A stretch of 64,000 nt of DNA from Erodium maritimum. Taxonomy: Eukaryota; Streptophyta; Magnoliopsida; Geraniales; Geraniaceae. Every line of letters begins with the position of its first letter. The first letter of the stretch is position 1. The notes beneath the pieces were generated by a model. That model ran no database searches, was not told where the DNA came from, and was given only the letters and a program-made list of their open reading frames with translations. Shown here piece after piece: positions 15,778-52,541 of this stretch. The stretch covers positions 47,042,039 through 47,106,038 of the forward strand of contig OY997593.1 of the NCBI GenBank assembly GCA_963921825.1, given 5' to 3'. The position numbers were made by a program, and so were the translations under genes.

Positions 15778-17513
15778 CTCAATATAACCAAGTCCTTCAG
15801 TGTCACGCCCCAATTTCAGTAAACCGAACTCGGGACGCGAACGTTTAAAATAAGAAAACACTTTGAAACCAAATTCATTAAAACACTTTACAATAACAGC
15901 TTAGTTCAACAAGATAATAAATACAGTTTAAAACACGTCCTAACAAGTGGACAAAGGTACACGGTATCCGTCACTAGACTCAAAAGACAAAACCCGGACT
16001 CCGCTCCTAGCTCCACAAGCTTCGAGAGCTCACCTAGTCCGTCCCACGAATAGTAGTCCGCTTTTGTTCCTTTTTAAACCCAAATAGCAGTCCATGTTAA
16101 CTAGAGTTCCAGATTCGTTCAACTGCTCAAATTCCGTTTTAAATCCGTTTAACGTCTAGTTTAAACGTTCAGGTTCCCAACTCAAACCAGTTTCGATCCA
16201 ATAATCCTAACAAGAAAACCTTTTGCTCGACTCTGGTTTCGTTTTCCTTTTTGATTAAAACCGTTTTATTTCCAAATTGATTCTCGTTTTTGAACCCAAA
16301 TTGATTTTAAACCCTTCAATCTCAAAACTGATTTCTTTTCCCCTTTCCTTTCAAAACTGATTTATTTCTTTAATTTAAGTTTGCTTCTGTTTCGATCCAA
16401 CACCACCCAAAACCGATCTCAAAACCCTAACTGTTTCAAAACAACTTCCTTTTTCTTCTCTTATTCCAATCTGATTTTTGTAAACTCAGTTTCTTCTATT
16501 TTCCGGATTCAACAGAACCGTTCCAAAATGTCCAGTTTAATCGTTCCAAAACGTTCCAAAATCAAGCCACAGTTTTGTTCAATTAGTCTCAAACCCGTCC
16601 TTTCTTTTCTAAAAAAAGTATTTGAAATCGTTTTTATTTTATTTTCCCTTTAGCAATTTATTCTCCTTAAAATTTCTGATTCCAAAACCTATCCACAAAC
16701 ATTTTCCGATCAACACTAACCGGATCTTCAAAACCCAGATTTAATCGAAAATCAAAAACTGGAAAACAAGGGTTTGGTTTCGAACCGGTCGGCCGCCGGC
16801 GAGGGCGGCGTCGGCCGGGGCCTAACCGTAGAGGAAGGGACGATGGCGTGGCCGGCGAGTGGCTCGGGACTGAGTGAGGACGGAGAGACGACCGGTGAAC
16901 TCGGTGTGGAGACGAGGGAGGACGATGGTGGCCGGACTCGGGAGCTGCGGCGCCGGCGACCGGAGTTGAGAGAGAGAGTGAGGTCGGGGTTGTCGGCGCT
17001 GTTGACCGGAAGAGAGGTGAGAGGAGATGGAGGGTTGAAGGAGATGGCCGGTGATGGAGATGGCCGGTGATGGAGATGGCCGGCGTCGGGAGGGAAATCG
17101 GAGAAGGAGAAGTCGTGAGGAGAGAGAGGGGGGCGTGGGGGTCGGCTGCGCAGGACGAAGAAGAGGGAGTGAAACTGAGGGTTCAACCTAATTTTCAGCC
17201 TTATAAAGGCGGGCCGGCTGCATTGGGCCTTAAACGGGCCAGAGACGTTGGCCTAAAACGAGAGGCACTGGACCGGGGCGGCCTGGCCTGGCCGGGTCTC
17301 CTGGTTGGGTCTGGTCCGCCCGACCCAGTTCTTTTTTTTTTCGCCTGTTTCAAAAACCTACCCCAAGGTTTTCAGATTGCAATTTAAGACCCTTTCGAAA
17401 GCGAAGCGGGTTTTACATTCAGGGTCTAATTCTTCCATGATCAGAGCTGCATATTCCTATGCTTGCTCCTTCAATCTCGATAACTTGTTTGCAGAAGCAC
17501 ACAACATTATGAC
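15778..17513 (-). pseudogene. Single exon of an RBOH NADPH oxidase, split by S4 and carrying a stop
   Basis: On the minus strand an exon runs from 17513 (after an AG acceptor) to 17418, then after S4 from 15800 to 15778 (before GTAAGTG). It reads VIMLCASANKLSRLKEQA, then stop, then EYAALIMEELDPEGLGYIE. This is the region just after the EF-hands of plant respiratory burst oxidase homologues, which make superoxide at the plasma membrane. The stop is TAG where RBOH proteins have glutamate. Intact splice sites show a genomic fragment, not a processed copy. No other RBOH exon was found nearby, so this is a captured or relic fragment rather than a broken whole gene. Confidence 0.85.
15801..17417 (-). 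mobile_element. S4: short solo LTR (1.6 kb), TSD TTCAG, site II-type promoter
   Basis: It starts TGTCACGCCCC and ends GGGTTTTACA. The perfect TSD, TTCAG, lies at 15796-15800 and 17418-17422. It aligns with S5 over both ends but lacks about 1.45 kb: the 3' part of the intron-like body, with the minisatellite and the acceptor. The junction lies near 16060, where S5 homology jumps. On the minus strand it keeps two GGCCC site II-like motifs, a TTTATAAGG TATA box (about 17201-17208) and a donor CTACG|GTTAGG near 16822. The GC-rich reading frames inside are not genes. Confidence 0.9.
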
Positions 17514-21997: not shown

Positions 21998-24900
21998 TGT
22001 AAAACCTGCTTCAAAAAAAAAAAATTGGGTCGGACCAGACCCGGCCCAAACCACAGACCCGGCCCAAGTCCAACCTATATAAGGTTGGATTAGGGTTCTG
22101 AAACCCTAACCCTCTCCCTCTCTTCTTCTCCTTCAGCCGCCCCTCTCCTCTCCCGACCTCACACTCGTCGTCCTCGTCGTCTCGCCGTCGCCGGCGTCTC
22201 TCCGGCCCTCTCCCTTGCCTTCCCTCTCCGTCCAGCCACCACGTCCCTCCCTCGACCCGACCTCACCCTCATCTCCTCCTCCACGCCTTCTTCTTCGTTC
22301 ACCTCCCTCACCGGATCCGACCACCACCGATCCCCTCCACCGGCTGTCCCGAGCCCGAGCTCGGCCGTCTTCGGCCAACCGCTCCGGCCGCCACCGTTCT
22401 GGGCTCCTCTCTGCCCGGCTTCACAACCACGCCCTCGTCCCGCCACCGTCTCCTCGTCTCAGACCGCCGCCGCCGCCACCCTACTCCGCCCCTCACGCTC
22501 GCCTCCGTCCAGATCTAGCCACTGCCCCTCGTACCCGACCTCGTCTCCTCTCCGTTCAGGCGAAACCCTCGCCGTCACCGAGACCCAACCTCCCTCTCAA
22601 GATTTCCGGCGAGACGAGCTCGCCTGGGACACGACCGTCCCGATGCTCCTCCCCTTCTTCACCATTTAGCCGTCGTCGCCGTCCACTCCCAGAGCCGAAG
22701 AGCCGCCGTGCTCCACCACCTCGTCTTCAACGGTGAGATTCTCACCACGGGGTGTGGTCGCCGGCGGCGTCTCCGTCGGTGGCCGGCCGGTTTCAAAACC
22801 GAGACCCTCTTTTTCGGTTCCCGTGTTGTTCGTTTCAAGTTAATTTGGACCTGCTAATGAAATCGATTAATATTTGGAACGGTTTTGAATTAAAAAGGGA
22901 AATATGTTAAATCAAAATCAGTTTTTGGATCTGCTTTGGTTGGAATCAAAATCAAGGTTTTGGAAAGAAAAAGTTGTAAAACGAAAATCCGATTTAAGAA
23001 AAAGTGGATTTAAAATGAAAAGGAATTAAAATCAATTCGGTTTTAAAAACGGTTTTAAATCGAGGAGTTGAGAATCTAATTTGTAAACGGGATTTAGGGA
23101 CGGTTGTTCAAAAACCGAACTTAATTCATTTTGGGCTCAAAAGATCGGAATAGAAACAGATTTGAAATAAAAGGGAATTTGATTTAAAACAAAAACCGTT
23201 CTGTTTTGAAAAAGGGTTATTAATCGGAATTGGGAACGACTCTGGAACTCTGGGTAAAATGGACTGCTAATTGGGTTTAAAAAGGAACAAAGGCGGACCG
23301 CTGAATCGGACCTCGGGATTCGTGCATTGGGATCGTGCCTCGCATACACCGGTTTCGGTGCTCGGGTACTCAAACCCGATTCGCCGTGACCCCGCTTTTA
23401 TCCCGCTCGAATTTAAGGGACAATTGTCGGTTGTAAACTGGATTAATCGTGACCGTTACATTAACCTAAGAACCGCCTCTAATTATGGCTTTCGTGTTAT
23501 CTTTAGAGTCCGGCTTCGATCGAAGTGAAGCTCGGAGGTAGCGAGCCAGAACGTCAGCAGCTAGGAAGCGTAGCGGTTGCTCTTCAGTTGAGGTAGGGAA
23601 AAGTAGCCGGATCTCGGCCCTGACTAGGGAAAGTTAACAGTAGAAATGCATGTGACACTGGGGTGTCGTGGGTTGAGTAGGTTAGCGAATATTAGAATTG
23701 CATGATACGGGAACGTAGCGATTATTGGAAATGCATGTGACACTTAGTAGTGTCGTAGGACCAGAGAACTTAGCGATAATTGTTTTACTGGAGGCATATG
23801 ACCATGCCCGGAGGTTGTTTGTGAAACTAGCGATCTTAGGACTGTTGGAGGCATCGACTATGCCGGAGGTTGTTGTGCGTTATTTGTTGTTGAGTTTGGG
23901 TGGCCTTGAGAGCCCGTGTAAATTGTTGTTGAGTTTTGGGTGGCCTTGAGAGCCCGTGTTACTATTGCTGAGTCTTGGGTGGCCATGAGAGCCCGTGTTG
24001 TCGTTTTGGTGTTTTGGGTGGCCGTGAGTGCCCGTGGGGTTGTGAACCCGTGTCGTTACTATTGGTGGTTTTGAGTGGCCGTGAGTGCCCGTGGGGTCGT
24101 TGACCCATGAGTCACTGTTGGTGTATCTTGGGAGGCCGTGAGTGCCTGTGGGGCTATTGAGTCCGTGTTTTAGGGTTGGTGTCTTGGGTGGCCATGAGTG
24201 CCTGTGGAGTGCTGAACTTGTGTTGTTGCTGTTTGTTGAACTGTGTTTGTGATTGTGATTGTGGTTACCTAAGGTTGTGGGCCCGCTTCATTAAACGGGG
24301 GTCCTCGATCACACGCGTCTGCACGTTCAGACGGGGTAGGGGGCCCGCCCGTCAGTAAAGGGGTCCTGGCCGCGCGTGTGTGGTTCGGTGGTTGTGAGTG
24401 TGATAGGTTGACAGTCTGATCCGACTTTGTGTCGAGGAAATGCGACAGGTCGACCGCCTGACCTGATGAGATCGGTAAAGGGCGTGAGGGAGGTTACTGA
24501 GCAGCTGGTTTGCAATCCTTTGTGATCTTGTTTGGTGTGCGTTTCTTTGTGATCTTGTTTGGTGTGCGTTTCTTTGTGATCTTGTTTGGTGTTGTGTAGC
24601 TTTCTGTCGTGTCCTTGGAGGAGATCGTCGATAGTTGTGTCGGGTTTACATCACGTGTCCGAATGTTGAGTCAGTTGAGGAAAGTTTGGGATCGTGTGCG
24701 TGTCTTTCGAGTCGTTGTTGGTGTTACCGGCATTGTCTGCTAATTATGCCGTAGTCAGTCTGTTATCCGTGGTGGTGAGTGAACGCTCACCCCTAGCTTC
24801 TTTTCCTACAGGTACTTGTCGCAGGTCGGACTAGGTGAGCTTCCGAAGCTTGAAGAGCTAGGGGCGGGAGTCCGGGTTACTTTTTAGTCTAGCGACGGAT

Positions 24901-25064
24901 ACCTCGTTTTTTGTCCGCTTGTGGGACGTTTTATTTGAGTTGTAATTATCTTTTGTTGAACTAAACTGGTACTGTAAAGTGTTTTAATTGAAAGAGTTTC
25001 AAAGTGTTTTCTTATTTTAAACGTTCGCGTCCCGAGTTCGGTTTACTGAAATTGGGGCGTGACA
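21998..25064 (+). mobile_element. S5: solo LTR, 3.1 kb, TSD AGTAG, site II/telo-box promoter
   Basis: It starts TGTAAAACCTGC and ends GGGGCGTGACA. The perfect TSD, AGTAG, lies at 21993-21997 and 25065-25069. The right part (from about 23590, AGGTAGGGAAAAGTAGCC) matches S6, S7, S8 and S9; the left 1.6 kb matches only S4. A donor CAACG|GTGAGA lies at 22733 and the acceptor TTTTCCTACAG ends at 24811. Both flanks carry the same host block (GCAAACAAACACAATAATGAAG), so it entered a small local duplication. Confidence 0.93.
22043..22109 (+). promoter_or_regulatory. S5 core promoter: two site II elements, TATA box, telo-box
   Basis: GGCCCA occurs at 22043-22048 and 22061-22066. TATATAAGG lies at 22076-22084 and AAACCCTAA (telo-box) at 22101-22109, followed by a pyrimidine-rich stretch. 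Site II plus telo-box is the established pairing in plant ribosomal-protein and cell-cycle promoters. Its use by this LTR is inference. Confidence 0.6.
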
Positions 25065-27463: not shown

Positions 27464-30398
27464 TGTAAGAACCGCTCTCGGTCAACGCCGGTCAAATCGA
27501 GGAAAAACGGAAAAATCTATAATTTTGGAGATACACCTAAATGGACCTAAAATTGACCCCGAGAGTCATATCGGACTTAAGTTGATCCTGATATCGACCA
27601 AAGTGAGTTCTGGGTGACTCAGGGCAACTTTTTGACCAATTCGGGAAAAGTTGACTTTTTGTCACAAAAAAAGTCAACCAAGCGACGTTTTGGTCCGTTC
27701 GAGGCCCGATTTGGAACCAAAAAGCTTACCCGTCGTTGCAGCGGTCTTAGTTGGGCCGTTTCCTTGTGGAATGCGAAATTTCATAAATTCTTGGAAAATG
27801 GGCTCGCACGGGGCCTGAGACGGTCGAATTTTGCGAATCTGATTGAAAAATATCTACAAAGATATTTTTCCAACTAATGGGACCCATATGACATTTCTCA
27901 TAAAAGTGGAGGTTTGGAGTTGAAAGGACAATTACACCCTTGACTTTAAAAACTAAAGGTAAAGGATGAGAAGGGTAATTTAGTCATTTTAAGGTGTGGT
28001 TAGTTTTTAAACAATATAAAAAGAGAAAGGATGAAAGATGCTCAGCCAAAAACAGAAAAAAGAGAGAGAAAAGGAGAGAGAAGAAGGAGAAGGAGAAAAG
28101 AGAAGGAAGGTTAGGGTGTTGGGGCTTTGTAGACGATACGACCGTCGGATCGTCTCATTTCTTGCGTATTCAGCATCCTCTCAACGTTCCCGACGGTAAG
28201 AACCCGTCTTTTTCTCGTTTTGACACGTTTTAATTCTAGGGTTTGAGTTTAAATGGTTTAAATAAGGTTGGTTTAAGGATTGGATTTCGCTAGGAACGTT
28301 TTGGGGCGAAAATGAACGTTTTTCGGTGACCGGAGGCTCACGGGAGCTCCGACCACTGTGAGCCACCGTGGGTGGTGGCTGGTCACGGCTTGAACCGGCC
28401 CAGACCGGTCCATCCACCCACGGCTAATGGATGGCCGGGTGGGGCCCACGTGGTCGGGTCTCGGGTTTTCGTGTTCGGGTGGTCTCGGACGATCCTCGAG
28501 TCGATAATTCAAACCCGTAATAAATTATGGAATTAAATTGGGAAAATTGGAATGTCGGGTTTAGAAACTTTAAACGCGAATTAAATCTCTCGGACATCGG
28601 AAATTCCTTCCGTCGAATGCGTTGGAACACGTGAATTATTTTAGGATCATAGAAGCGAAATGGGAATTTTTGGAGCCCCGAAAGGGCGTTTTACGATCCC
28701 GGGCAGATTCGCCAAGCCGGGCGAATCGGGCCTTTCCGGGCCCATTGTTGACACTGTCGAGTATTTTGGAAGTTTGGGAGCGATCGGCATTGTCGGGGTT
28801 TCTTTTGGGCGTTAAATTCATTAAATTCGGTTTTGCCTGCATATTTAACAAGTGTATTATTTTTTGATCACCTTAGACCGTGCCACCGACCGCAGAAAGA
28901 GGAGGCTAAGCGGGTGATCGTGAGCATTGCCGAAGCGTGAGCATCGGACTTGGAACGCTTTACGAGGTAGGTAAAAGTAGCCGGATATCGGTCTTGACTA
29001 GGAAAAGTTATTAGTAGATTTGCATGTGACACTTGTTTGTGTCGTAGGATAAGTGAACTTATCGAACAATAGAAATGCATGTGACACTTGGTGGTGTCGT
29101 AGGATAAGTGAACGTATCGAACAATAGAAATGCATGTGACACTTGGTGGTGTCGTAGGATAAGTGAACGTATCGAACAATTGAAATGCATGTGGCACTTG
29201 GTTGTGCCCGTAGGTTGAGTGAACTGATTGTGTTTGTGTGTGGCCATGTGTGCATGTGGGGTGTTGAACCCGTATTGTTGTTGACTGACTTGCTGAGTGG
29301 TAGTTAGTCGTTTTGTTATTTTTCGCTATTTGTTGATATTGTGTGATTTGTGATATTGGTGTAGAGGTTTGGCCCGCCTGTCGACTCGCCATCGACAAAG
29401 GGTGCCACGGTACCGTGTTTGAGGTTGGCCCACCTTCCGACTAGCTATCGGTAAAGTGTTGCGTTGTTCCGCGATGAAGGAGAGGCCCTCCTTCCGACTA
29501 GCAATCGGAAAAGTGTTGCTATGTGCCGCGATGAGGCACGCTGCCTTCTTGAGGGGCGATCGGGTAAAATGCGAGGGTACGCCAGGCCTAGCCAATTTGC
29601 TACCGGATACCGTACAGTGTGTAGTTTGTTGATATTGTGTGACATTGCTTGTGATCTTTGTGTGTGGGTGGAGGTATGGCCCGCCTGTCGACTCGCCCTC
29701 GACAAAGGGTGCCACTGTTCCGCGATGAAGGAGAGGCCCTCCGTCCGACTAGCACTCGAAAAAGTGTTTCTCTGTGCCGCGATGAGGTACGCTGCCTTCC
29801 CGATCGGCGGTCGGGTAAAATGTGGGGCTACGTCAGGCCTAACGTCCTGCTAACGTAAAACCATGCTGTGGGTGTGGTATTGTGTGATTTTGATCATGGT
29901 TGTGTATGTTATTGAGGTCATAACTGATGTGTCGGGTCTACATTACGTGCACAGGTGTTAGATGGTTGGGGAAATTGACAGTTATTTGTGTGACAGTCGG
30001 GTTAATTTGTGTTTTGGGGTAGTAGTCCCCGGTGTTATTGTTTGTTGTCGGTGTTCCCGACATTTCTGCTGGTATGCCGTAGTCAATTTGGTATCCGTGG
30101 CGGTGAGCGAAATGCTCACCCCCTGCTGCTTTTCTTACAGGTACTGGCCGCGAGGCGGACTAGGAGAACTCTCAAAGCTTGAAGAGCTGGGAGCGGGAGT
30201 CCGGGTCTTTGGCAGTTTAGCGACGTATTTTTTTTTGCTTTTGTTCGCTTGTTTTGAACGTATTTTCAGTTGTAAAAATATTGTTTTTGATTAACATAAG
30301 TGGTGATTTTAAGCGGTTTATTAAAATGTTTGAAAATCTTTTTTACTGTTTCACCGTTCGCGTTCCGGGTTCGGTCATACCGAATTCGGGGCGTGACA
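27464..30398 (+). mobile_element. S6: solo LTR, 2.9 kb, TSD AGACC
   Basis: It starts TGTAAGAACC and ends GGGGCGTGACA. The perfect TSD, AGACC, lies at 27459-27463 and 30399-30403. It has the clearest transcription-unit layout: paired evening elements, a TATA box (TATAAAAAG at 28015-28023), a purine-rich leader, a donor CGACG|GTAAGA at 28196, an intron-like body of 1.95 kb, and an acceptor TTTTCTTACAG ending at 30140. Four copies of a roughly 57-bp GTGACACTTG-GTGTCGTAGGATAAGTGAAC unit lie at 29020-29240. It has a second, diverged set of repeats near 29360-29830. Confidence 0.93.
27650..28200 (+). promoter_or_regulatory. S6 promoter and leader: W-box dyad, paired evening elements, TATA, splice donor
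   Basis: A W-box dyad (TTGACTTTTT...AAAAAGTCAA) spans 27650-27678. AAAATATCT at 27847-27855 faces AGATATTTT at 27860-27868. TATAAAAAG at 28015-28023 is followed by a GA-rich leader (28021-28115) and a donor at 28196. The order, with the donor about 180 bases after the TATA box, is what sets the sense strand for the family. Confidence 0.6.
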
Positions 30399-34835: not shown

Positions 34836-37066
34836 GTGATTGTCTATGAAGGTACACCTCTTGACGATTCGAAATTAAAGTATGAGGCATGGAAGGATTT
34901 TACTAGGCGTCAAATTGGTGATACTATATATGCATATTGCCATCATTGCCATACTAGGTTGACTGTCAACTCTTCTGCGTGCGGGACAACTAGTTTAACA
35001 AATTATCTTAAGACATGTAAAATAAATCCCAAAAGGCGTGTTGTTGAACCTAATCAAGGACTCCTCAACTTTAATAGTGCTACTAAAGAATTAACCCCTT
35101 GGCATTTTGATCAAACTGCTTGTGAAATTGGACTAGCTAAGATGATAATTTTAGATGAGCTTCCCTTTAGTCATGTAGAAGGCAAAGGGTTTCAGGCGTT
35201 CATGAAAATTAGTTGTCCAGCTCTGATGGTCCCCTCTAGGCACACTGTTATGAGGGGCATTTTCAAATTGTATGTATTTGAGAAGCAGAAGTTGTATGAC
35301 TATTTCAAGATTTGTGGTCATAGGATGTCCTTGACAACTGACACTTGGACGTCAGTGCAACAAATAAATTACATGTGTCTAACAACACATTTCATAGACC
35401 ATGACTAGGTTTCTCATAATATGGTAATAAATTTCTGCCCAATCATAGTGGTGAGGATATTGGGAAGGCCATAGAGTTGTGTCTTCAATCTTGGAGTCTT
35501 GATAAGCTCATGACGGTTACAGTGGATAATGTGATGTCTAATGCACTAGTCGTTGATTATTTGAGTGATCAAATGAACATGTTAGGCACGTCATCTTTAG
35601 GGGGGGAATTCATGCATATGAGATGCATTGCCCACATCATCAATCTCATAGTGCAAGAAGCCTTAAAAGATATAGCCACTTCTAAGGGAAGGATAAGGTA
35701 TGCCGTAAAGTTCATAAGAATGTCTCCTATAAGGTTGCAAAGGTTCGCAGACACTGTTAAACAAGCTAAGATAGATGGGAAGAAATTGCTATCTGCGGAT
35801 ATGCCCACTAGATGGAATTCAACGTATTTAATGCTCGAGTTGGCTTGCAAGTTGGAGAAGGCCTTCGAAGTGTATAACATTTTTTACCCTATTTTAGGGA
35901 ATGAGATGGGGACGAAAAAAAACATAAGAGACAAAGATAACAAAACCACACTTCTTGGTAGAATAACTCCACAAGATTGGGTTGAGTGTAGGTGTTTCCT
36001 GACCTATTTGAAGTTATTCTATAACATGATCATTCGTATCTCTGGGTCTTATTATGCTACGTAACAATATTTTGTATGATATATGTGATATTTACACCCA
36101 GATTGAGAAGGGTCTCAAACACGAAAATATAGACATGCAATCCATGGCCCGCAGAATGCTTGAGAAGTTCAATATATACTTTGGAACTTTCGATATGTTG
36201 AACTTTTATACATTTCTTTCCCCAATATTTGATCCAAGAAAGAAGATGGATTTCATCTCATTTGTCGTCAACAGGATGTACTTAAAAGAAACTACATCAA
36301 AACTAATGTTGGTTATCGAACGGGCATTAAATGATTTGTTTGGGGAGTATACACGAGCACATGGTTCTAGTACAAGTAATGCACAAATCATGGATTCAGA
36401 CTCCGGACCAATTGATCTTGTGGTCGAGAGTATGTTAAACAGGGCTACATTTGCGGCATACAAGAGGAGAAAATACAATCAGGAATGTCACGCCCCAATT
36501 TCAGCGAACCGAACTCGGGACGCGAACATTTAAAACATGAACACTTAAAACCTGTTTTGAATAAAACTCTGATATTTCCATTTAATTACCAAAAATAATA
36601 ATAGTATTTACAATACAAAAACGTTCCAACAAGTGGACAAGGTACACATCCGTCACTAGACTCAACAAAAGTAAAGACCAGACTCCGCTCCAAGCTCCAT
36701 GGACTTCAAGAGCTAACCTAGTCCGTCCGGTGATCAGTACCTGTAGGAAAAGCAGCTAGGGGTGAGCGTTCGCTCACCTCCACGGATAACAGACTGACTA
36801 TGGCATAATTAGTAGATAAAGCCAGTAACACTAAAACCAAACCCAACACCGGGACTACAGTCCCCAACTCAGGTACCCAACTGACCCACAACCCGTCACC
36901 TTTTCTCAACAGACTCGACACTCGATAAAAACAGTGTAAACCCGACACAACTATCGACGACCTCCTCAAGGACACGACAGAAAGACTACACAACGCCAAA
37001 CAAGATCACAAAGGATCGCACACCAGCTGCTCAGTAACCAATCTCAATCAGGTCAGGGTTCGACCT

Positions 37067-37358
37067 ATCGCAATTCCTCAACACGAAGTCGGATCAGGCT
37101 GTCGACCTTTCAAACTCGCAATTCCTCGACACTAAGTCGGATCAGGCTGTCGACCTTTAAAACTCGCAATTCATCGACACTAAGTCGGATCAGGCTGTCG
37201 ACCTTTAAAACTCGCAATTCATCGACACTAAGTCGGATCAGGCTGTCGACCTTTAGAACTCGCAATTCATCGACACTAAGTCGGATCAGGCTGTCGACCT
37301 TTAGAACTCGCAATTCATCGACACTAAGTCGGATCAGGCTGTCGACCTTTAGAACTCA
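37067..37358. repeat. 48-bp tandem array, about six copies, in S7
   Basis: The unit has AACTCGCAATTCATCGACAC, then TAAGTCGGATCAGGCTG and TCGACCTTTA. Because 48 is a multiple of three it creates a repeated 16-residue open frame on the minus strand that is not a gene. Confidence 0.95.
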
Positions 37359-39084
37359 CCACCCCAGGTAACCACAATCACAATCATAGGCAAGTTCAAT
37401 CACACAGGCACTCAAGGCCACTCAAGACACCTCAACAGTCAAGACTCGGGTTCAACAACCCCACGGGCACTCACTGCCACTCAAGACACCTCAACAGTCA
37501 AGACTCGGGTTCAGCAACCCCACGGGCACTCACTGCCACTCAAGACACAAAATTAATTACACGGGCTCTCAAGGCCACCCAAACTCCACAATTAAATACG
37601 GGCTCTCAAGGCCACCCAAACTCAACAATTAAATAACACGGGCTCTCAAGGCCACCCAAACTCAACAACAAATAACACGGGCTCTCAAGGCCACCCAAAC
37701 TCAATAATAAATAACACGCAACAACCTCCGGCATACTCGATGCCTCCAACAATTCTAAGATCACTAGTTTCACAAACAACCTCCGGGCATGGTCATATGC
37801 CTCCAGTAATTCAATTATCGCTAAGTTCTCTGTTCCTACGACACTACTAAGTGTCACATGCTTTTCTCTTGAACGCTACAATCCAGTATCGTGCTTTTCT
37901 AATAATTAAATAAATCTACTCAACCCACGACACCCCGGTGTCACATGCAATTCTACTATTAACTTTCCCTAATCAGGGCCGAGATCCGACTACTTTTCCC
38001 TACCTCGTATATAGATCCAAAAGCGCTCCAACAAAACCCGAAGTGGACCTAGTCACTCGCCGAGCTTTCCCTTGCCTCGGTCCGTAGCACGATCTAAAAG
38101 AACACAAATTCAAAGTACTTTTAAACTAGTACGAATAAACCGAAAATTAATAAACTTAACGCCCAAACGTAACCCCGACAAAGACGATCACTCCCAAACT
38201 TCCCAATTATTCGATATTGCCGAAAAAGGACCCGTAAGGGCCAGATTCGCCCGACATGGCGAATCTGCCCGGTTTTGGTTAATTGCCTTCCGGGGCTCCA
38301 AAAGTCCCCATTTTCGTTTCTACGGTCTTAGAATAAATCAAGGAACTCAACGCACTTGACGGAATCGAATTCCGACTTCTAAATCAATTAATTAACGTTT
38401 AAAGTTTCCCAAAACCCGTTAATTACAACTTCTCCAAATTAATTCCAAATTTCGATTCGATTAGGAATAAGTGGTCCGGGGGACGTTTTAAACCACCCGA
38501 ACATTAAAACCCGAGCAACCGAGCACGTGGGCCCCACTCAAGAGGCTTGGCCGAGACCCTAGGGTTTGAGGGAGGGGCTCGGCCACCAAGTGGTGGCTGC
38601 TGCCACCTCCGGCCAGCCACCACATGGCCGGCCGGCCACCACCCACGGTGGCCGGAGCTCCTCCCGAGCCTCCGGTCACCGGAAAACGTGAAATTAAACC
38701 CCCAAACACCTCTAAAACGTCTCCAACACCTCCCCACACTCTACACAACCCTAAGCCTTAGTTTATAACCAAACCCTAGCTCTTGAAAATAATCAAAACG
38801 AGAATCGGTTCGGGTATTACCGTAGAGGAGAACGAGGGGAACGGGATTGCTCTTTGCTTTGACTCGATCCAAGGGCTCGATCACAAACCCTAGCTCAACC
38901 TCCCTTCTTCTCTCTTCTTCTCCTTCTCCTTCTCTCTCTAAAACCTCTCTTCTAATTTCTAATTTAATTAAACTAACAACAAAACTAACTTTCTCTCCCT
39001 TAATACCCCATACTCGGCCAACCCTCTCCAACCACACCTTTTCCCTCCAAAAATTACACCACCATATACTTGACAAGTGTCAAG

Positions 39085-39318
39085 GTGGGTCCCATACCTT
39101 TTGGAAAATATCTAGTTGATATTTTCCAATCAGATTCGCGAAAAACGGACGTTTCGGGCCCCGAACGGGCACTTTTCCCAAGAAATTTTTAAACTGGACG
39201 GGCTTCAAGGAAACGGCCCAACTAAGACCGCTACGACGACGGCTAAGCTTTTCGGGTCCAAAACGGTCCTCGAATGGACCAAAACGTCGCTCGGGTGACT
39301 TTTCTAGCGAAAAATCAA
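39085..39318 (-). promoter_or_regulatory. S7 LTR regulatory block
   Basis: GTGGGTCCCAT follows a CAAGTGT half-dyad. AAAATATCT lies at 39105-39113, with an inverted partner carrying one mismatch at 39117-39125. The W-box dyad at 39293-39318 is degraded on one arm. Confidence 0.45.
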
Positions 39319-39890
39319 TCTTTCCCAAATTGACCAGAAAGTTGCCCTGAGTCCCCCGTAACTCATTTTAGTCGATAACGGGGTTATCTTAAGTCCAGTA
39401 TGACCCTCGGGGTCAATTTAGGTTAAGTTTAGTGTCTGTCTTAAATTTTTTTAAATTTTCCTGTTTTTCGCAGGTTTGACTGACGTTGACCAGAAGTGGT
39501 TATTACAAGGAAGGTATTGCCAAATATGAACTTGAAAGGTATCTCAAAGAAGAAGAAGTGGAGCCTACTACGAAATTTGATGTGTTGGTTTGGTGGAGTC
39601 AAAATGCAGTGCGATACCCGATCATTTCGAGAATGGCTCGTGATATATTAGACATTCAAGTTTCCACTGTCTCATCCGAGTCTGCTTTTAGTACTGGATT
39701 TTGACGGATTTTAGGAGTTCTTTGCATACTAATATCGTGCAAGCTCTAAATTGCACACAAGATTGGTTCAAAATGAAAGTTGCAAAGGATCCTATAGTGG
39801 AGGAAATGACACCGATGGCAAAAGCCGCTTCGTTGGTAGCGGATATGGAGAAACTTCAAATTTTCGAAGAAAGTTATTATTCAAGTTAAT

Positions 39891-40432: not shown

Positions 40433-42478
40433 TGGTTTTGTTAATAATTTTTTTTTGAAACGGGTAACCGGAGAAGTGCATTACTTCCAAAAGGTAACCA
40501 AACAAGGTAGGCAGTAACCGCCCAGGGTTTCAGATATTTGTCCAGCGCTCATGGACCCATCAAAATAGCCTACTTGATATCGTAGACAACAACTTAGGAC
40601 ATCCCCTTACCAACGTCTCAGAAACACGAGACATGAAATGAAAAAACCTACCCAGAGCAGAAAATAAATTGTTCCAACAGTAAAACAGAGAGAAATAAAG
40701 CAAGCAATAGGACTGAGCTGTTGTTGCAGGCTGCCCGAGACCTCCCAACACTGGTTGTCCTGGGTCTGTAGGTATAGGCATGTTAGTCTTAGTGCCCGTA
40801 GTTCAATCCTAAATGTCCAAATGTATATATCATCGTTAGCAATAAATTAAAGCCGCTTTATATTACTTATGTGTTGGAGTAATATATCGATGCGTGCTCT
40901 GATCTATGCCCACCATACGAATAGAACCATAGATCGAGATAGATCACACTCGATGGGTCCCTAGTCAACAAAGCTTCACTAGAAGCGACTAGTATGAAAG
41001 ATGGCTCTTTATGGCTTACGTTCAGTTAGTCATTGGAATGGAATTCCGGAGTCTGATCATAGATATCATGTGGGACATGATATTGGACAACCCGCCCTGA
41101 GTATGTGCCATAGATTAAGTCATGAACATATTCAGTGTCGTAGCTTGTCATGTATCCTTAGACCAAGGAGTCTTTGTGATCGCTATGTAGTCAACAATTG
41201 AGTTTGACCTGAGCCTAACGTTGTCCGTAACAGGGCTTCCGTAACGGCCAGGATTGGCTTGGGGACGTGCTACATGAGTGACACGAAAGACGGCTAAGGG
41301 ATTTATCCCTCATACTGAGGTATGGGAAAGATATCGGTTCTCGACCGCTTGATTGAGAGTGACTGAAAGAATAGCATGGCCATGCACATGATACTGGGTA
41401 TCATATCTTCAGTCATCTCACATATCAAGGAACAGTGATTGAGAATAATAAGGATGACGGATCTATGCCTTATCTCAATCAGGATATCGGAGATAAAAGG
41501 ATAATGACAGGGATGACAAAAAGGTTAGAATCGACAGGGTCGATTCGTTATGCAGTGTCAGGAAATACTAAAGTCTCGTTAGTCGCCACTTAAATAGGAT
41601 CAAGTAAAATGTGATTTTACGATGATCTATTGACATGCATAAACCTAAGGGTCACACAGGAGGGTGAAACTCATAGACACATTTATGGAGAATGGCCAAA
41701 AGAGAGTTTTCTCGGGACATGACCAAAACTGGGTTTTGGGTCATGTGCTCGTAAGTGAATAGGACTTTACAGATCAAGACAAGTCTTGGAGTCTTGGGAT
41801 TGATCGCGTCGGAGAATGTTGGACATCTCCGGCATGGAAGGCTTGGAGGCGATGAGCGAATCACGAGACCTCGTTGGAAATGGTCACGGGTCATGTTCCA
41901 AGAGGCCCATGAAAGGCCCATGCAACCAAGGCCCGTGGAACTAATTAATCAAGTCTTGATTAATTGGTACTAAGTAAGCAAGACAAGGATTAAGGTGTTG
42001 GTGCTTTAGCACCTAACCCCATCTTGTCTCGCCATAGTTTGTCCTATGTACACCTTACTTGTCACCATACTTGTCCCATGCATGTAGTTGGACAAGTATG
42101 GGGTTTGTTATGTTTAAGTCATCTTTTTTCAATATAACAAACACAAGATAAGAATAGGAAACATAATTTTCTCTCCCTCCTCTCCCCAATTTCGGCCAAG
42201 GCAAGGTTTCATCTCCATTTTGTGTTCTTGAGTCCTCAATAAGAAGAACTACGTGGCTTTGATTCACATGTGGATACGTAGGCGTCTTAGAGTGTAATAA
42301 CCACTCCCGATCAACGCCAGTCAAACCCGCGAAAAACAGGAAAATTTTAAAAAATTCAGCAGACACTTATTTAAACCTAAATTTGACTCCGAGGTCATAC
42401 CGATCTTAAGTTGACCCCGATATTGACCAAAGTGAGTTCCGGGGGACTCAGGGCAACTTTCTGATCAATTTGGAAAAT

Positions 42479-42736
42479 GTTGACTTTTCGCTGGAAAAGT
42501 CAACTGAGCGACGTTTTGGTCCATTCAAGGACCGTTTTGGATCCAAAAAGCTTAGCCGTCGTCGCAGCGATCTTAGTTGATCCATTTCCTTGTAGCCCGT
42601 CAAGTTTCGTAATTTCTTGGGAAAAGTGCCCGTTCGGGACCCGAAACGTCTGATTTTAGCGAATCTGATTGGAAAATATCTAGTAGATATTTTCCAAAAG
42701 GTGTGGGACCCACCTTGCCACTTGTCCAACAAGTGG
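42479..42736 (+). promoter_or_regulatory. S8 LTR regulatory block with perfect dyads
   Basis: GTTGACTTTTC at 42479-42489 pairs with GAAAAGTCAAC at 42494-42504. Two perfect evening elements face each other (42673-42681 and 42685-42693) inside a 13-base-arm palindrome. GTGGGACCCAC lies at 42703-42713. CCACTTG at 42718-42724 faces CAAGTGG at 42730-42736. Confidence 0.6.
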
Positions 42737-44923
42737 TGGTGTTAGTTTTTGGGGGGGGGGGAATGGGTGGTGGTGCCTTAAGTGTGGCCGGCCACATATC
42801 AAAAAAAAGGAAAAAAAAAGAAAATGAGTTAGTTGTTTTAGAAAGAGAAAGAAGAGAGAAGAAAGGGAGAGAAGGAGAAGAAGAAAAGAGAGAAGTCTAG
42901 GGTTTGGAGCACTATTCACGTCATCTCCACCCTTGGATCGTCTCAAGGCTAGGAGGAAGTGCACTCCCCTCATCCTCCTCTACGGTATACACCGAACCGA
43001 TTCTCGTTTTGATAAATTTTGGAAGTTAGGGTTTATGTAAAACAATTGGTTTAGGGTGTTTTGAGGTTGGGGAAATTGTTGGAGACGTTTTGGAGGTGGT
43101 TGGAGGTGTTTGTTGACGTTTTCCGGAAGCTCGGGAGGAGCTCCGGCCACCGTGGGTGGTGGCCGGCCGGCCATGGGGTGGCTGGCCGGAGCTGGGACCA
43201 GCCACCACCATGGTGGCAGGGCCCCAATTTGAGCCATACGGCCCACGGCCAAGGTGGGCCGGGTGGGGCCCACATGCTCGGGTGATCGGGTTTCGTGTTC
43301 GGGAGTTCTAGAACGTTCCCCAGACCATTTATCCATAACCGAATCGAAAATTGGAATTAAATTGGAAAAGTTATAATTAACGGGTTTTAGAAACTTTAAA
43401 CGTTAATTAATTGACTCGGAAGTCGTAATTCGATTCCGTCAAGTTCCTTGGGACCCTTGAATTATTCTAAGACCGTAGAAACGAAAACGGGAATTTTTGG
43501 AGCCCCGGAAGGGCATTTCCAAAACCCGGGCAGATTCGCCATGTCGGGCGAATCGGGCCTTTACGGTTCCCTTATCGAAAATGTCGAGAAATTGGGAAGT
43601 TTGGGAGTGATCGACATTGTCGGGGTTAAGTTTGGGCATCAAGTTTAATGATTTTCAGTTTATTCCTGCGAGTTGTTAAGTGCCTTTAAATTGTGTTCTT
43701 TTAGATCGTGCCACGGACCGAGGCAAGGGAAAACTGGGTGAGTGACTGAGATCATCACCGGAGCTCGTTGGTTGGCTTTTGGGAGAACACGCACGAGGTA
43801 GGGAAAAGTAGCCGGATCTCGGCCCTGACTGGGGAAAGTTAACAGTAGAATTGCATGTGACACTTGGGGTGTCGTGGGTTAAGTAGGTTTATCGAATATT
43901 AGAAATGCATGATACGGGAACGTAGCGATTATTGGAAATGCATGTGACACTTAGTAGTGTCGTAGGAGCAGAGAACTTAGCGTTATTAGAATTACTGGAG
44001 GCATATGACCATGCCCGGAGGTTGATTGCGAACTTATCGAGATTAGGAGTACTGGAGGCATATGACCATGCCCGGCGGTTGATTGTGAAACTTTTGATAT
44101 TAGGACTGTTGGAGGCATTGGTTATGCCGGAGGTTGATTGTGTATTTTTGTGTCTTTGGTGGCCTTGAGGGCCCGTGTATTATTGTTGAGTTTTGGGTGG
44201 CCATGAGTGCCCGTGGGGTTGTTGAACCCGTGTCTTTACCTTTAGTGTTTTGGGTGGCCATGAGTGCCCGTGGGGTGGTTGAACTCGTGTCTTTACCTTT
44301 GGTGCTTTGGGTGGCCATGAGTGCCCGTGGGGTTGTTGAACCCGTGTCTTTATTGGCGGTGTGTCTTGGGAGGCCGTGAGTGCCTGTAGGGTTGTTGAGC
44401 CCTTGAGTTACTGTTTGGGTGTCTTGGGAGGCCATGAGTGCCTGTGGGGTTGTTGAGCCCGTGAGTGACTGTTGGTAGTTTTGAGAGGCCGTGAGTGCCT
44501 GTGGGGTTGTTGAGCCCTTAAATTACTGTTGGTGGTTTGAGTGGCCGTGAGTACCTGTGGGGCTGTTGAGTCCGTGTTTTACTGTTGGTGTATCTTGGGA
44601 GGTCGTGAGTGCCTGTGGGGCTGTTGAGTCCGTGTTTTACTGTTGGTGTATCTTGGGAGGCCGTGAGTGCCTATGGGGCTGTTGAGTCTGTGTTTTACTA
44701 TTGGTGTCTTGGGTGGCCATGAGTGCCTGTGAATGTTGAACCTGCGTTGTTACTGGTTGTTGAAGTTGCTTGTGATTGTGATTGTGATTGTGGTTACTTG
44801 AGGTTGGGGGCCCTCTTCATGAAACGGGGGTCCACGAGCACACGCGTCTGCATGTTCAGACGGGGTAGGGGGCCCGCCCGTCAATAAAGGGGTCCTGGCC
44901 GCGCGTGTGTGGTTTGGGTTTGT

Positions 44924-45121
44924 GAGCATTCTTTGGCTGGCTTACGAGTTAGAGTCTCTGTAAGTTGCGAGCATTCTTCGGCTGGCCTGACCGAGTTAGA
45001 GTCTCGGGAGGTTGCGAGCGTTCTTCGGCTGGCCTGACCGAGTTAGAGTCTCGGGAGGTTGCGAGCGTTCTTGGCTGGCCTGACCGAGTTAGAGTCTCGG
45101 GAGGTTGCGAGCGTTCTTGGC
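44924..45121. repeat. 47-bp tandem array, about four copies, in S8
   Basis: The unit carries GTTGCGAGCGTTCTTCGGCT then GGCCTGACCGAGTTAGAG. Related units occur, inverted, in S9 at 49790-49940 and again at 50487-50575. Confidence 0.9.
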
Positions 45122-46035
45122 ACTGAGCAGTTGGCAGCTGGCATGCGATCCTTTGTGTTCTTGTTTGGTGTGCGATCCTTTGTGATCTTGGGTGTTGCGT
45201 GGTGGTCTTTTGAGTCCTTGGGAGGGGTCGTGATCGTTGTGTCGGGTCTACTTTACGAGTCCGAGTGTTGAGTTTGTTGAGGAAGGTAACTGTTGTGGGT
45301 CTTTTGAGTACTTGGGTTGGAGTTTGTCTTTTCCGGTTTTGGGTTGGTTTTGGGTGTTACCGGCATTGTCTGCTAATTATGCCGTAGTCAGTCTGTTATC
45401 CGTGGTGGTGAGCGAATGCTCACCCCTAGCTTCTTTTCCTACAGGTACCGTTCGCAGGCTGGACTAGGTGAGCTTCTGAAGCTTGATGAGCTAGAAGCGG
45501 GTTTCTGGTTTATTTGAGTCTAGCAACGTATACCATGTTTTTGTCCACTTGTTGGGACTTATTTTGAGTTGTAAATATTATTTTGTTGAACAAATGGTGA
45601 TTTTAAAGTGATTTATAAAAAGGGTTACAAAATGGTTTATTGTTTCAAAACGTTCGCGTCCCGAGTTCGGTTTACTGAAATTGGGGCGTGACATAGAGAC
45701 TCAAGCCCAATCATTCGTTACCCGGTGTTCTTGTTTTTGGTAAGAAACAGTGCTGAATTTTTCTCTTGTGAATCCATTCTTTGTTAGTTATTTCATGGTT
45801 TTAATCGTCTCTTGGTTTTCATTAATTTTCCGCTGCGAGTTGGTTCATCTCCAACCCTACCTCGAGACCCAACAAGGCCAGTATCGGCCACACCCACCCC
45901 TGCTGGGTCGGATCATTCCTGCATAAGAGGCTGTCATGCCTCCGCCTGCTTCGCCTGGTCCTCCTCTGTGTTGTCCGGCTTGTTGAGTTTTGGTGGGAGA
46001 CTCGGATGATCCAGCGACTTCTTTGTCCTAGGAGC

Positions 46036-48389: not shown

Positions 48390-50070
48390 ACACATCCACT
48401 GTTTTTTTCTCAGCAAAACATTATTTTAAAATAAAACCTCATTTGAGGTAAAAGAGGAGTTACAAGTGTGTTGATGGAATTACAAGATACAAGTTCTTGT
48501 AAACACTGAAATGAACAATGAAGTGGTAACTTGCAAAACAAGAAACAAAACAATTCAAATCAAAACCCAATACTGAGAAGGTTTAGTTTATAGCCTTCTT
48601 TGAATTAGAGCAAATGATGAGAGGAATGAGGTTAGAGCAATTCATTATGAGGGATTTGGGATTGATCAATCGATCCTTACTGAGTGTAATATGTGAAGTT
48701 CTGTAGTTGTTGAAGATGTATGTTGCAACTGTTATTCTTGGCTTTTCTTATGGACTGAGATGAAGTTATAATAGAGACTTGGTTTTGCTGAAGGGATCTT
48801 AAGATTGTTGAAGGTTGGATCTGTGTAGTGAAGGTTGCTTAGTTGTTGTTGTTGTTGTTGTTGAAGCAAGCTGAAGAGTAGTTTGTGATGAGGGGCATGC
48901 TATATGTGAGTTGCAAGCCATAGGAGAATCTGACTTTGATAGCCTGCAGTTGAGATGAAAGTTTGAACACTTGTTGAAATCTCAGATTCTGCAGATGATG
49001 TTGAAGTAGTAGATGAGGCTTCCCAGCTGAATAAGCATATCCAAGTAGAACCTACAAAAGAAGGATAGCAGCAAAGGGAAGAGAAGAGAAAGAGACACAA
49101 AACTAGAGATCAACCTACCCACACACTAGTAAAAACAGAGAGGGAGAGAACCAAAACAAGGAAAAGAACCCACACACAAGAAGAGATCAGAAGAAATGGA
49201 ATCCCTGTCACGCCCCAATTTCAGTAAACCGAACTCGGGACGCGAACGTTTTAAAATAATAAACACCTTTGAAACCATTTTTATAATTCACTGTTAAAAC
49301 ACCAACTGTTCAACAAAATAATATTTACAACTTAAAACACGTCCCAACAAGTGGACACAAAAAACATGGTATACGTCGCTAGACTCAAATAAACCCAGAA
49401 TCCCGCTTCTAGCTCTTCAAGTTTCAGAAGCTCACCTAGTCCAGCCTGCGAACGGTACCTATAGGAAAAGCAGCTAGGGGTGAGCGTTCGCTCACCACCA
49501 CGGATAACAGACTAACTACGGTATAATTAGCAGACAATGCCGGTAACATCAATAACAAGGTCAACACCGGGGAACACTGTCCCCAACCCAAGTATTCCGA
49601 CTGAACACACACCCACTGTTACCTTCCTTGACCAACTCAACACTCTGACACGTAAAGTAGACCCGACACAACCATTGACGACCTCCTCCAAAGACACGAC
49701 AGATAAAACGCAACACCAATCAAGATCACAAAGGATCGCACACCAAACAAGATCACAAAGGATCGCATACCAGCTGCCAACTGCTCAGTGCCAAGAATGC
49801 GTGCAACCTCCCGAGACTCTAACTCTGTCAGGCCAGCCAAAGAATGCTAGCAACTTACCGAGACTCTAACTCGTAAGCCAGCCGAAGAATGCTTGCAACT
49901 TACCGAGACTCTAACTCGTAAGCCTGCCAAAGAATGCTCACAAACCCAAACCACACACGCGCGGCCAGGACCCCTTTATTGACGGGCGGGCCCCCTACCC
50001 CGTCTGAACATGCAGACGCGTGTGCTCGTGGACCCCTATTTCATGAAGCGGGCCCCCAACCTCAGGTAAC

Positions 50071-50122
50071 CACAATCACAATCACAATCACAATCACAAT
50101 CACAATCACAATCACAATCACA
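50071..50122. repeat. (CACAAT)n hexamer array, about 8.7 copies, in S9
   Basis: Perfect hexamer run. The complementary ATTGTG/GATTGTG run occurs at the same place in S8 (44770-44792) and S5 (24250-24266) with fewer copies. Confidence 0.95.
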
Positions 50123-52013
50123 AGCAAATTCAACAACCAGTAACAACACAGGTTCAACACTCACAGGCACTCATGGCCACCAAGACACCAACCGTAAAAC
50201 TCGGACCCAACAGCCCCACAGGCACTCACGGCCTCCCAAGACACACCAACAGTAAAACGCGGACTCGACAGCCCCACAGGCACTCACGGCCTCCCAAGAT
50301 ACACCAACAGTAACTCACGGGCTCAACAACCCCACGGGCACTCACGACCACTCAAACCACCAACAGTAAAGACACGGGTTCACAACCCCACGGGCACTCA
50401 TGGCCACCCAAAACACCAAAGGTAAAGAAACGGGTTCAACGACCCCACGGGCACTCATGGCCACCCAAAACTCAACAATAATACACGCTCGCAACTTCCC
50501 GAGACTCTAACTCGTAAGCCAGCCAAAGAATGCTCGCAACCCCCCGAGACTCTAACTCGGTCAGGCCAGCCAAAGACACCAACCTTAGTACACGGGCTCT
50601 CATGGCCACCCAAGACACAACAGTAATACACGGGCTCTCATGGCCACCCAAGACACAATTACACAAACAACCTTTGGCATAACCAATGCCTCCAAAAGTC
50701 CTAATATCAACAGTTTCACAATCAACCCCCGGGTATGGTCATATGCCTCCAGTACTCCTAATCTCGATAAGTTCACAATCAACCTCCGGGCATGGTCATA
50801 TGCCTCCAGTAATTCTAATAACGCTAAGTTCTCTGCTCCTACGACACTACTAAGTGTCACATGCATTTCCAATATTCGTTATGTTCCCGTATCATGCCTT
50901 TCTAATATTCGATAAACCTACTTAACCCACGACACCCCGGTGTCACATGCAATTCTACTGTTAACTTTCCCTAGTCAGGGCCGAGATCCGGCTACTTTTC
51001 CCTACCTCGTGCGTGTTCTCCAAAAGACAACCAACGAGCTCTGGCGTGACCTCAGTCACTCACCCAGCTTTCCCTTGCCTCGGTCCGCGGCACGATCTAA
51101 AAGGACACAATTTTAAGGCACTTTTAAACTCGCAGGAATAAACTAAAATTCAGTAAACTTAACGCCCAAACCTAACCCCGAAAATGTCGATCACTCCCAA
51201 ACTTCCCAACTACCCGACATTGTCGATAAAGGGCCCATAAAGGCCCGATTCGCCCGACATGGCGAATGTGCCCGGGTTTTGTAAATGCCCTTCCGGGGCT
51301 CCGAAAATTCCCGTTTTCGTTTCTACGGTCTTAGAATAATTTAAGGGTTCCTATGCACTCGACGGAATCGAATTCTGACTTCCGAGTCATTTAATTTGCA
51401 TTTCAAGTTTCTAAACCCGTCAATTACAACTTTCACAATTTAATTCCAAATTTCGATCCGGTTGTAGATTAATTACTTGGGGAACGTTCTAAACCACCCG
51501 AACACAAAACCCGATCACCCGAGAACGTGGGCCCCACCCGACCATAATGGGAAAATTCCCTTTTATGCCCCAAAACGTTCCTAACGAACTCCAAACCTCA
51601 ACCAATCATCTTTAAACCAATCTTAAACAACACCCAACCTTAATCAACCCATTTAAACTCAAACCCTAAAATTCAAACATTCCAAAACGAAAATCGAATA
51701 GGTTCTCACCGTAGGGAATGACGATGGGAGCTCGATTCTTCAACCGTTGAGACGATCCGTCGGTCGGATTGTCGGGAAATCACAAAACTCCAAGCTTTTC
51801 CCTTACTTTCTCTCTTCTCCTTCTCTCTCTTCTTTCTCTTTCTAACTCCCTTCTTTTTTTTCTAAAATGGACGTGTATCAACCTTTCCCTGTTATTTTTG
51901 TTTTAAAACTAACACCAACCTTTCTTTATTTACAAAACTAACGCTAACTTCTCTTTATTTACAAACTAACACTAACTTCTCTTCATTTGTTTTGTCCAAT
52001 AAACCTAACACCA

Positions 52014-52271
52014 CCACATAGTTGACATGTGGCTAGGTGGGTCCCACACCTTTTGGAAAATATCTCCTAGATATTTTCCAATCAGATTCGCGAAAATCGG
52101 ACGTTTCGGGCCCCGAACGGGCACTTTTTCCAAGAAATTACGAAACTTGGCGGGCTACAAGGAAACGGCTCAACTAAGACCGCTGCGACGACGGCTAAGC
52201 TTTTTGGATCCAAAACGGTCCTCGAATGGACCAAAACGTCGCTCGGTTGACTTTTCCAGCGAAAAGTCAAC
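52014..52271 (-). promoter_or_regulatory. S9 LTR regulatory block with perfect dyads
   Basis: CCACAT at 52014-52019 faces ATGTGG at 52027-52032. GTGGGTCCCAC lies at 52037-52047. AAAATATCT at 52057-52065 faces AGATATTTT at 52069-52077 with 13-base arms. GTTGACTTTTC at 52246-52256 pairs with GAAAAGTCAAC at 52261-52271. Three further TTGAC/GTCAA cores lie before the LTR end. Confidence 0.6.
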
Positions 52272-52541
52272 ATTTCCCAAATTGATCAGAAAGTTGCCCT
52301 GAGTCCCCCGGAACTCACTTTGGTCGATAACGGGGTCAACTTAAGTCTGGTATGACCCTTGGGGTCCAATTCCGGTTCAATTTAGTGTCTGCTCAAATTT
52401 TTAAATTTTCCTGTTTTTCGCAGGTTTGACTGCCGTTGACCAGGAGTGGTTATTACAATCTACAAACAAGACACCCTCACATTCACTCCACTTCCTTAAC
52501 CAACCCTCCCATACCACCCTTCCCAGGACCCAGTTGGAAGA

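Follow-up and report, generated by a model that had tools for sequence, protein, structure and literature searches.

What is the block of facing palindromic words in the LTR at 42479–42736 of this Erodium maritimum sequence: a clock- and stress-responsive promoter, or a relic that is copied along with its element? The 64,000-nucleotide stretch analysed here (the window) contains nine LTR units, one of which, S8, carries a block with a predicted W-box dyad, a facing pair of evening elements (EE), a TCP-like site, and a CCACTTG/CAAGTGG dyad. The dyads are real, lie far above chance, and form a genuine pattern in an ordinary kind of element. They are inherited by copying from ancestral elements. 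The W dyad is also present in a sister LTR family, whereas the facing EE pair was observed in the S8 family alone, where it is polymorphic. We favor, with a probability of about one half, the reading that the block belongs to an inherited U3 promoter/enhancer, in which a WRKY-type W-box module predicted from the sequence would be the main constrained part and the TCP-like site and EE words would be variable accessories. A preliminary description of the locus had proposed a promoter under joint clock and stress control. That interpretation is partly supported: its W-box half gains support, and its clock half little.

Repeat units were defined by a BLAST search of the window against itself, and S2 was added from its LTR start and end, giving nine units in total (Table 1). 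The dyad block occupies positions 187–444 of the S8 LTR. S3, S6, S7, and S8 have TG..CA ends and perfect 5-bp target duplications (TGACG, AGACC, TTCCT, and TAGAG, respectively) and span just 2.9–3.8 kb, and are therefore solo LTRs. The target duplication has no match in S9 and matches only with a one-base offset in S2. The 3' end of S2 is of the type of a second LTR family. The U3 region is visible in seven of the nine units, S4 being a 3'-end fragment and S5 lacking the 5' part. A TIR transposon or foldback element, suggested by the inverted copies, is ruled out by the LTR ends, the target duplications, and the primer site. A 56–58 bp minisatellite lies inside the LTR, with about 20 copies in S3 and 10 in S8. 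Its copy number differs between LTRs and may explain part of their length variation. The window contains no Rfam match at the gathering score and no tRNA in a tRNA scan.

Table 1. LTR units, dyads, and other features of the window.
Feature	Position	Strand	Remarks
S1, LTR continuing past window edge	1..533	-	W dyad 321–346; EE right arm 132–140, left arm with 2 mismatches
S2, sister-family LTR	1158..6883	-	9-bp-arm W dyad 6806–6831; lone EE 6658–6666
S3, solo LTR	8338..12144	-	W dyad 11932–11957; EE pair 11744–11764
S4, LTR 3'-end fragment	15801..16055	-	U3 not found
S5, partial LTR without 5' part	23590..25064	+	U3 not found
S6, solo LTR	27464..30398	+	W dyad 27650–27678; EE pair 27847–27868
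S7, solo LTR	36486..39507	-	W-lost-clade letters TTGATTTTT..AAAAGTCAC; AAAATATCA/AGATATTTT at 39105–39125
S8, solo LTR	42293..45693	+	ends TGTAATAACC..GGGGCGTGACA; duplication TAGAG; ~3.4 kb
S9, LTR	49206..52457	-	W dyad 52246–52271; EE pair 52057–52077
W-box dyad GTTGACTTTTC-gctg-GAAAAGTCAAC	42479..42504	+	S8
TTCGGG-a-CCCGAA dyad	42633..42645	+	S8; absent from the preliminary description
Facing EE pair, 14-bp arms	42669..42697	+	S8; cores 42673–42681 and 42685–42693
GTGGGACCCAC, TCP-like site	42703..42713	+	S8
CCACTTGT-cca-ACAAGTGG dyad	42718..42736	+	S8
Conserved non-dyad stretches	42569–42579; 42507–42517		S8 277–287; S8 215–225
Minisatellite	9313–10426; 44171–44731		S3; S8
Adjoining frames resembling a broken hAT-type transposase	34779–36533	+	Pfam backs the last frame only (hAT-like RNase-H fold)
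Frame with CCHC_4 zinc knuckle	46447–46920	-	between S8 and S9
LINE-like element	53422–56123	-	RVT_1 in two frames (one below cut-off); weak endonuclease match

The evening element, predicted as the exact word AAAATATCT, occurs 14 times in the window compared with 1.34 expected, a count reached by none of 100 shuffles. Eleven of the 14 words lie inside these LTRs. GTTGACTTTTC with at most one mismatch is found 12 times compared with 2.4 expected. The dyad arms of S8 are 11 (W), 14 (EE), and 8 (CCACTTGT) bp long. The longest arm is reached by none of 300 shuffles in S6, S7, S8, and S9, and by 3, 1, and 8 in S1, S3, and S2, respectively. A chance origin of the dyads is ruled out by these shuffles and by backwards controls in the genome. 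The predicted W-boxes also cluster above chance: the six window family copies contain 4–6 TTGACY cores per 450 bp compared with 0.55–0.74 in shuffles, and S2 contains 3 in 300 bp compared with 0.46.

Perfect EE words face each other across 3–4 bases in S3, S6, S8, and S9, and the S7 partner has one mismatch, exactly as described earlier; the S1 partner has two. The EE had been placed at the same position in seven of the nine LTRs. The shared position holds, but for six copies, with the right arm present in all six and the left arm in four. S2 has a lone EE at a different distance from the W-box. The TCP-like site and CCACTTG dyad, said to be present in most copies, are each exact in half of them (GTGGGACCCAC in 3/6, CCACTTG/CAAGTGG in 3/6), and TGGGACCCA is found in all six. 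Outside the LTRs, AT-rich DNA at 61662–61700 contains two facing AAAATATCT words with 21 bases between them, probably by chance. A search for TATA words in the window found TTATA (S1, S2) and ACATAT (S8) in comparable sequence contexts, and a TATA word in S6. There is none in S3, S7, and S9, and thus no consistent TATA box among the window copies. The 90 genome copies described below share no TATA box either; TATAWA peaks there at 11 occurrences in one 30-base bin around LTR position 720.

The dyads occupy the first 450 bp, the U3 region, of 3–4 kb LTRs of a Ty3-type retrotransposon. In complete copies, a primer-binding site of the tRNA-iMet type lies directly behind the LTR. The LTR end GGGGCGTGACA is followed after 0–8 bases by TGGTATCAGAGC at 5,765 places in the genome (2863 + 2902, the two families together; control 0). 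GCTT and ATTT are the main spacers between the LTR end and TGGTATCAGAGC among the 100 matches listed. Eight such loci were fetched, four with GCTT, the LTR end of this family, and four with ATTT, which the end of S2 resembles. At one GCTT site (L098), a U3 anchor (L007) precedes the LTR end and primer site by 2.8 kb. The sequence behind this site (L105) matches Pfam RVP_2, RVT_1, and RNaseH, followed by H2C2, rve, and SH3_Tf2-1, with H2C2 above and rve below the Pfam cut-off. This order of protease, reverse transcriptase, RNase H, and then integrase in one copy identifies the element as Ty3-type (Metaviridae).

A 23-base anchor in the U3, outside the dyads, is matched exactly at 7,379 places (3683 + 3696) in the 763-Mb genome. 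The block is an LTR U3 scattered genome-wide in thousands of copies, as had been proposed. Facing AAAATATCT pairs with 9-bp arms number 5,817 (backwards control 0), and facing EE words with 11-bp arms and a 3-base loop number 1,504 (control 0). W-box dyads number 14,750 (backwards control 1). From the sampled copies we infer that this family accounts for most or all of the facing EE pairs and a share of the W palindromes. The W-dyad pattern also matched two viral contigs, with the same stretch around the match; they have no BLAST similarity to the window (E 0.001).

The exact EE and W-box words keep a fixed order and recur in such numbers against controls of 0 and 1, which favors a clock and stress promoter. 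CCA1/LHY/REVEILLE factors would bind the facing EE and WRKYs the W dyad, and the LTRs would pass this control to neighboring genes. Excerpts of published work offer precedents in the WRKY W-boxes of EVADE/ATCOPIA93, in TCP20 with PHRE (PMC12786077), and in carrot MITEs (PMC13102513). Motif words alone are no proof of binding, and we regard this proposal as unlikely; the conservation of the EE words, described below, speaks mostly against it.

The conservation of the dyads was first examined in a MAFFT alignment of the six window family copies against a rotation background. The four dyads together are no better kept than the remainder (0.830 vs 0.834 elsewhere, rotation p 0.58), and the W-box and EE cores score 0.885 vs 0.829 (p 0.11). 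The S6 loop is one base longer, which puts its right EE arm out of register in this alignment. After the S6 row is shifted by hand, the W-box and EE cores score 0.927 vs 0.827 (p 0.013), the same cores with TGGGACCCA 0.940 vs 0.824 (reached by no rotation), and the four full dyads 0.870 vs 0.830 (p 0.17). Loop columns vary more than arms (0.607), and among 229 changes the most frequent types are G>A and C>T, with 90 together. The background-level result of the first alignment and the prevalence of G>A and C>T are in line with dyads that have no present function, being ancestral palindromes that persist by shared descent while the copies differ by neutral decay. This reading is possible, though we consider it doubtful. 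Since the six-copy outcome depends on the alignment, copies from the genome were used.

The genome sample consists of the first 90 of the 100 anchor matches listed, all on contig C1 and picked regardless of their dyads, a choice by anchor that favors better-kept copies. The LTR start is recognized in 82 of them. The W dyad with 9-bp arms is intact in 73 copies and the facing EE pair in 32. Among 88 scorable copies, the left EE is present in 46, the right EE in 64, and both in 32; at least one EE is found in 78 of the 90. The TCP site has a core of the GGNCCCAC / GTGGNCCC type, and the predicted site conforms to it, with TGGGACCCA in 72 copies and GTGGG.CCCAC in 61. CCACTTG..CAAGTGG is found in 22.

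The W arms of 9 bp, a length chosen after the columns had been inspected, show a column identity of 0.957, a value that 3 of 398 rotations reach, compared with 0.849 in the other columns. The signal is weaker for 11-bp arms (0.923 vs 0.850; 35 of 396 rotations). TGGGACCCA has an identity of 0.916 (86 of 413 rotations). The EE left arm scores 0.81 vs 0.854 (309 of 413); in the right arm, loop length shifts the column register. The CCACTTG arms fall below their neighbors (0.737; 372 of 403). A word test of exact 9-mers near their place gives a similar ranking. The 390 9-mers have a median of 52 of the 90 copies; TTGACTTTT and AAAAGTCAA reach 76 and 75 copies, equalled or passed by 15 and 18 9-mers, respectively. 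TGGGACCCA reaches 69 (45 9-mers), the right EE word AGATATTTT 63 (95, above the median), and AAAATATCT 44 (264). Two further parts of the U3, which lie around TCTTAGTTG and GACGTTTTGG and belong to no dyad, are conserved like the W-box arms in the 90 copies.

Thus, when the dyads are compared with their background, as the preliminary description had suggested, the 9-bp W arms are kept above it, and neither the left arm of the EE pair nor the CCACTTG dyad is. The description had also named dyads mutating as fast as adjoining LTR sequence as an outcome that would speak against it, and this is what is found for part of the block. The frequency of at least one EE and the rank of the right EE word agree with clock binding, whereas a left arm kept no better than its neighbors and a pair intact in about a third of the copies do not. 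The low identity of the CCACTTG arms, and non-dyad words that are kept equally well, would suit a block without present function; the W arms, which are among the best-kept words of the U3, argue against it.

In the youngest copies sampled, the W dyad is broken and the perfect EE pair is absent. In 11 of the 90 copies, TTGATTTTT..AAAAGTCAC replaces the W dyad and both W arms are broken. All 11 have AAAATATCA/AGATATTTT and so are without one of the two EE words. These W-lost copies fall in one clade of 12 tips (12 of the 90 sampled) with support of 1.0, whose twelfth tip, L009, carries an additional change in the W region on top of the shared ones. The W loss is derived, because the W core is intact in S2 and in seven of the eight nearest outside copies, the eighth being L009. 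Mean pairwise identity is 0.955 among the 11 W-lost copies and 0.838 among W-kept copies, and the median terminal branch is 0.0044 compared with 0.038 (Mann–Whitney p 2.5e-7), an apparent youth that tandem arrays and gene conversion could inflate. Fourteen copies have a nearest neighbor at least 96% identical: 11 are W-lost, two have kept the W dyad, and none has the EE pair.

The W-lost form occurs at 589 + 572 places genome-wide, and AAAATATCA/AGATATTTT at 1682 + 1607 (controls 0 and 1). Same-strand pairs 8.0–8.8 kb apart, likely the spacing of the two LTRs of one element, involve 49 of 100 W-lost places compared with 5 of 100 anchor places among the matches listed; for pairs 5–12 kb apart, the figures among the matches listed are 53 and 20 of 100. 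Two W-lost neighbor pairs agree at 461/469 and 469/469 U3 positions, whereas seven other neighbor pairs, none W-lost, show 77–96% U3 agreement. W-lost LTRs also form two runs of three on contig C1, at 7105663, 7114178, and 7122693 (constant spacing 8,515 bases) and at 14174117, 14182565, and 14191013 (8,448 bases), a layout as in tandem LTR-internal-LTR-internal-LTR arrays.

Each of the 11 W-lost copies retains 4–5 TTGACY cores and at least one EE. The mean number of cores is 4.2, compared with 5.8 in the 79 other copies (3–8 per copy). The youngest sampled clade has spread although its W dyad is broken and it does not have the perfect EE pair. Recent spread therefore does not depend on perfect dyads, and the facing arrangement is not strictly required; single sites may still matter for spread. 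The loss of dyads in this clade is as expected for palindromes without present function, and the missing EE pair counts against clock control through facing EE. The clade also permits a reading of the dyads as brakes. CCA1 and LHY are repressors. The facing EE and the W palindrome would repress the element, and the W-lost clade would have escaped this repression and produced the latest burst. We consider this very improbable. If it were true, the genome would contain a released lineage alongside thousands of LTRs that can still be repressed, a natural experiment in shedding host regulation.

The sister family shares part of the block. Fifteen W-dyad places with another loop type were fetched, comprising 12 sister-type U3s and three of the first family. 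Since the W dyad, and not the EE, served to select the 12 loci, they give no measure of how often the sister family keeps its W dyad. A pattern match places the LTR start 43–54 bases ahead of the W dyad in 10 of the 12, and inspection by eye shows a variant start in the other two, L107 and L120. Over the 351 bases that begin at the W dyad, none of the 12 contains facing EE words. L120 has a lone AGATATTTT, as does S2, and L116 has AAAATATCT much further on. In the sister U3s (L107–L120), GTGGTCCCCAC (6/12) and GGACA..TGTCC (9/12) lie where the first family has its TCP-like site (GTGGGACCCAC) and CCACTTG dyad. A CCAAAAAGCTTA-like word and RTTTCCTT, each found in 11 of the 12, are U3 words likewise common to both families, so sharing is not special to the W dyad.

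S2 was chosen independently of its dyad. It retains the 9-bp W arms, although the rest of its U3 aligns poorly with that of the family. Its distal block consists of a single EE, GTGGACCTCAC, and a CACATG dyad, and bears a weak likeness to that of the family. The alignment score is reached by 9, 0, 3, and 0 of 500 shuffles against S1, S7, S8, and S9, respectively, and by 87 and 68 of 500 against S3 and S6, where the likeness is not clear.

The dyads are therefore not conserved as one unit: the left arm of the EE pair and the CCACTTG dyad change at least as fast as their neighbors, the EE pair is missing from all 12 sister loci, and the youngest clade has neither intact W arms nor the perfect EE pair. 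The absence of the EE pair from the sister loci weighs further against the clock and stress promoter. Other words equally common to the sister family are compatible with shared descent without function, but the W dyad kept by S2 in its divergent U3 is not readily explained in this way.

The palindromes could also act through their structure, either as an RNA fold or as a DNA cruciform; they might, for instance, template small RNAs and bring about silencing, as described for the palindromes of Sirevirus LTRs. The dyads of S8 and S9 fold far better than shuffles. In S8, the W hairpin has an energy of -15 kcal/mol (z -4.9 vs shuffles), the EE-TCP-CCAC block -32.2 kcal/mol (z -5.4), and the 450-nt U3 fold a z of -3.6. 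The S6 and S3 blocks fold more weakly (z -2.9 and -2.1). The greater variation of loops than arms is also in favor of hairpins, and palindromes of maize Sirevirus LTRs are small-RNA hotspots in the excerpts available (PMC10760457, PMC5311732). However, no covariation stands out in the 90 copies by our own pairing criterion, and pair changes in the W dyad are one-sided in nearly all cases. Pair 430/440 of the CCACTTG dyad (S8 positions) is T-A in 36 copies, A-T in 23, and T-T in 17. Compensatory evolution at this pair, for which S9 was suggestive, is rejected, since the pair ranks 885th by mutual information among 3160 column pairs. The outer EE pair changes from G-C to A-T on both sides in 14 of 88 copies, which can be read as a single inherited indel type. 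In addition, the maize study, as excerpted, reports no clear structure peak in Ty3 elements (PMC10760457). A role of the hairpins is quite improbable, and the dyads may fold simply as a by-product of their sequence.

An inherited promoter/enhancer with a constrained W-box module thus remains our preferred reading. The U3 would act as promoter/enhancer, and the W-box dyad together with the other TTGACY cores would constitute a WRKY-type module. The TCP-like site and one or two evening elements would add to this activity or tune it as variable accessories; clock control by the predicted EE sites is possible. If the motifs are bound, the family is a large potential source of regulatory sites in the 763-Mb genome. 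Because the family divides naturally into W-kept and W-lost copies, the role of the sites can be tested directly without designing any sequence.

Several known systems resemble parts of this element. It may belong to the plant chromovirus lineage Tekay/Del, with which it would share the long LTR, the iMet-type primer site, and the PR-RT-RH-INT order. Tekay/Del elements carry a chromodomain at the integrase C terminus; here, Pfam finds no family in the corresponding region (L105:5165-5506) at E up to 1. EVADE/ATCOPIA93 is a Ty1/copia element, whereas the element described here is Ty3-type with palindromic predicted W-boxes. The two are alike in having W-box elements in the LTR, which in Arabidopsis EVADE/ATCOPIA93 are bound and controlled by WRKY according to the excerpted text (PMC12786077). 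The same text has TCP20/TCP factors acting on bamboo PHRE elements (PMC12786077), and a CCA1 motif is listed for a set of Arabidopsis Pogo elements in part of another source (PMC8725346).

Among the open-access matches listed, including PMC11656987 and PMC5281569, the available portions describe no LTR with a facing EE pair. Published work already covers WRKY W-boxes in a plant LTR, MITEs that spread LHY sites, and palindromic LTR regions associated with small RNAs. Carrot DcTourist_15, like the present family, is mobile and redistributes LHY/RVE (EE-like) sites, but it is a DNA-transposon MITE with DAP-seq and expression evidence in the portion available (PMC13102513), whereas the LTR here is known from sequence alone. 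Maize Sirevirus likewise has a cluster of palindromes in the regulatory part of its LTR. It is a Copia element with small-RNA data, as far as the excerpts extend (PMC10760457, PMC5311732), whereas the present element is Ty3-type and its dyads are built from words resembling transcription factor sites.
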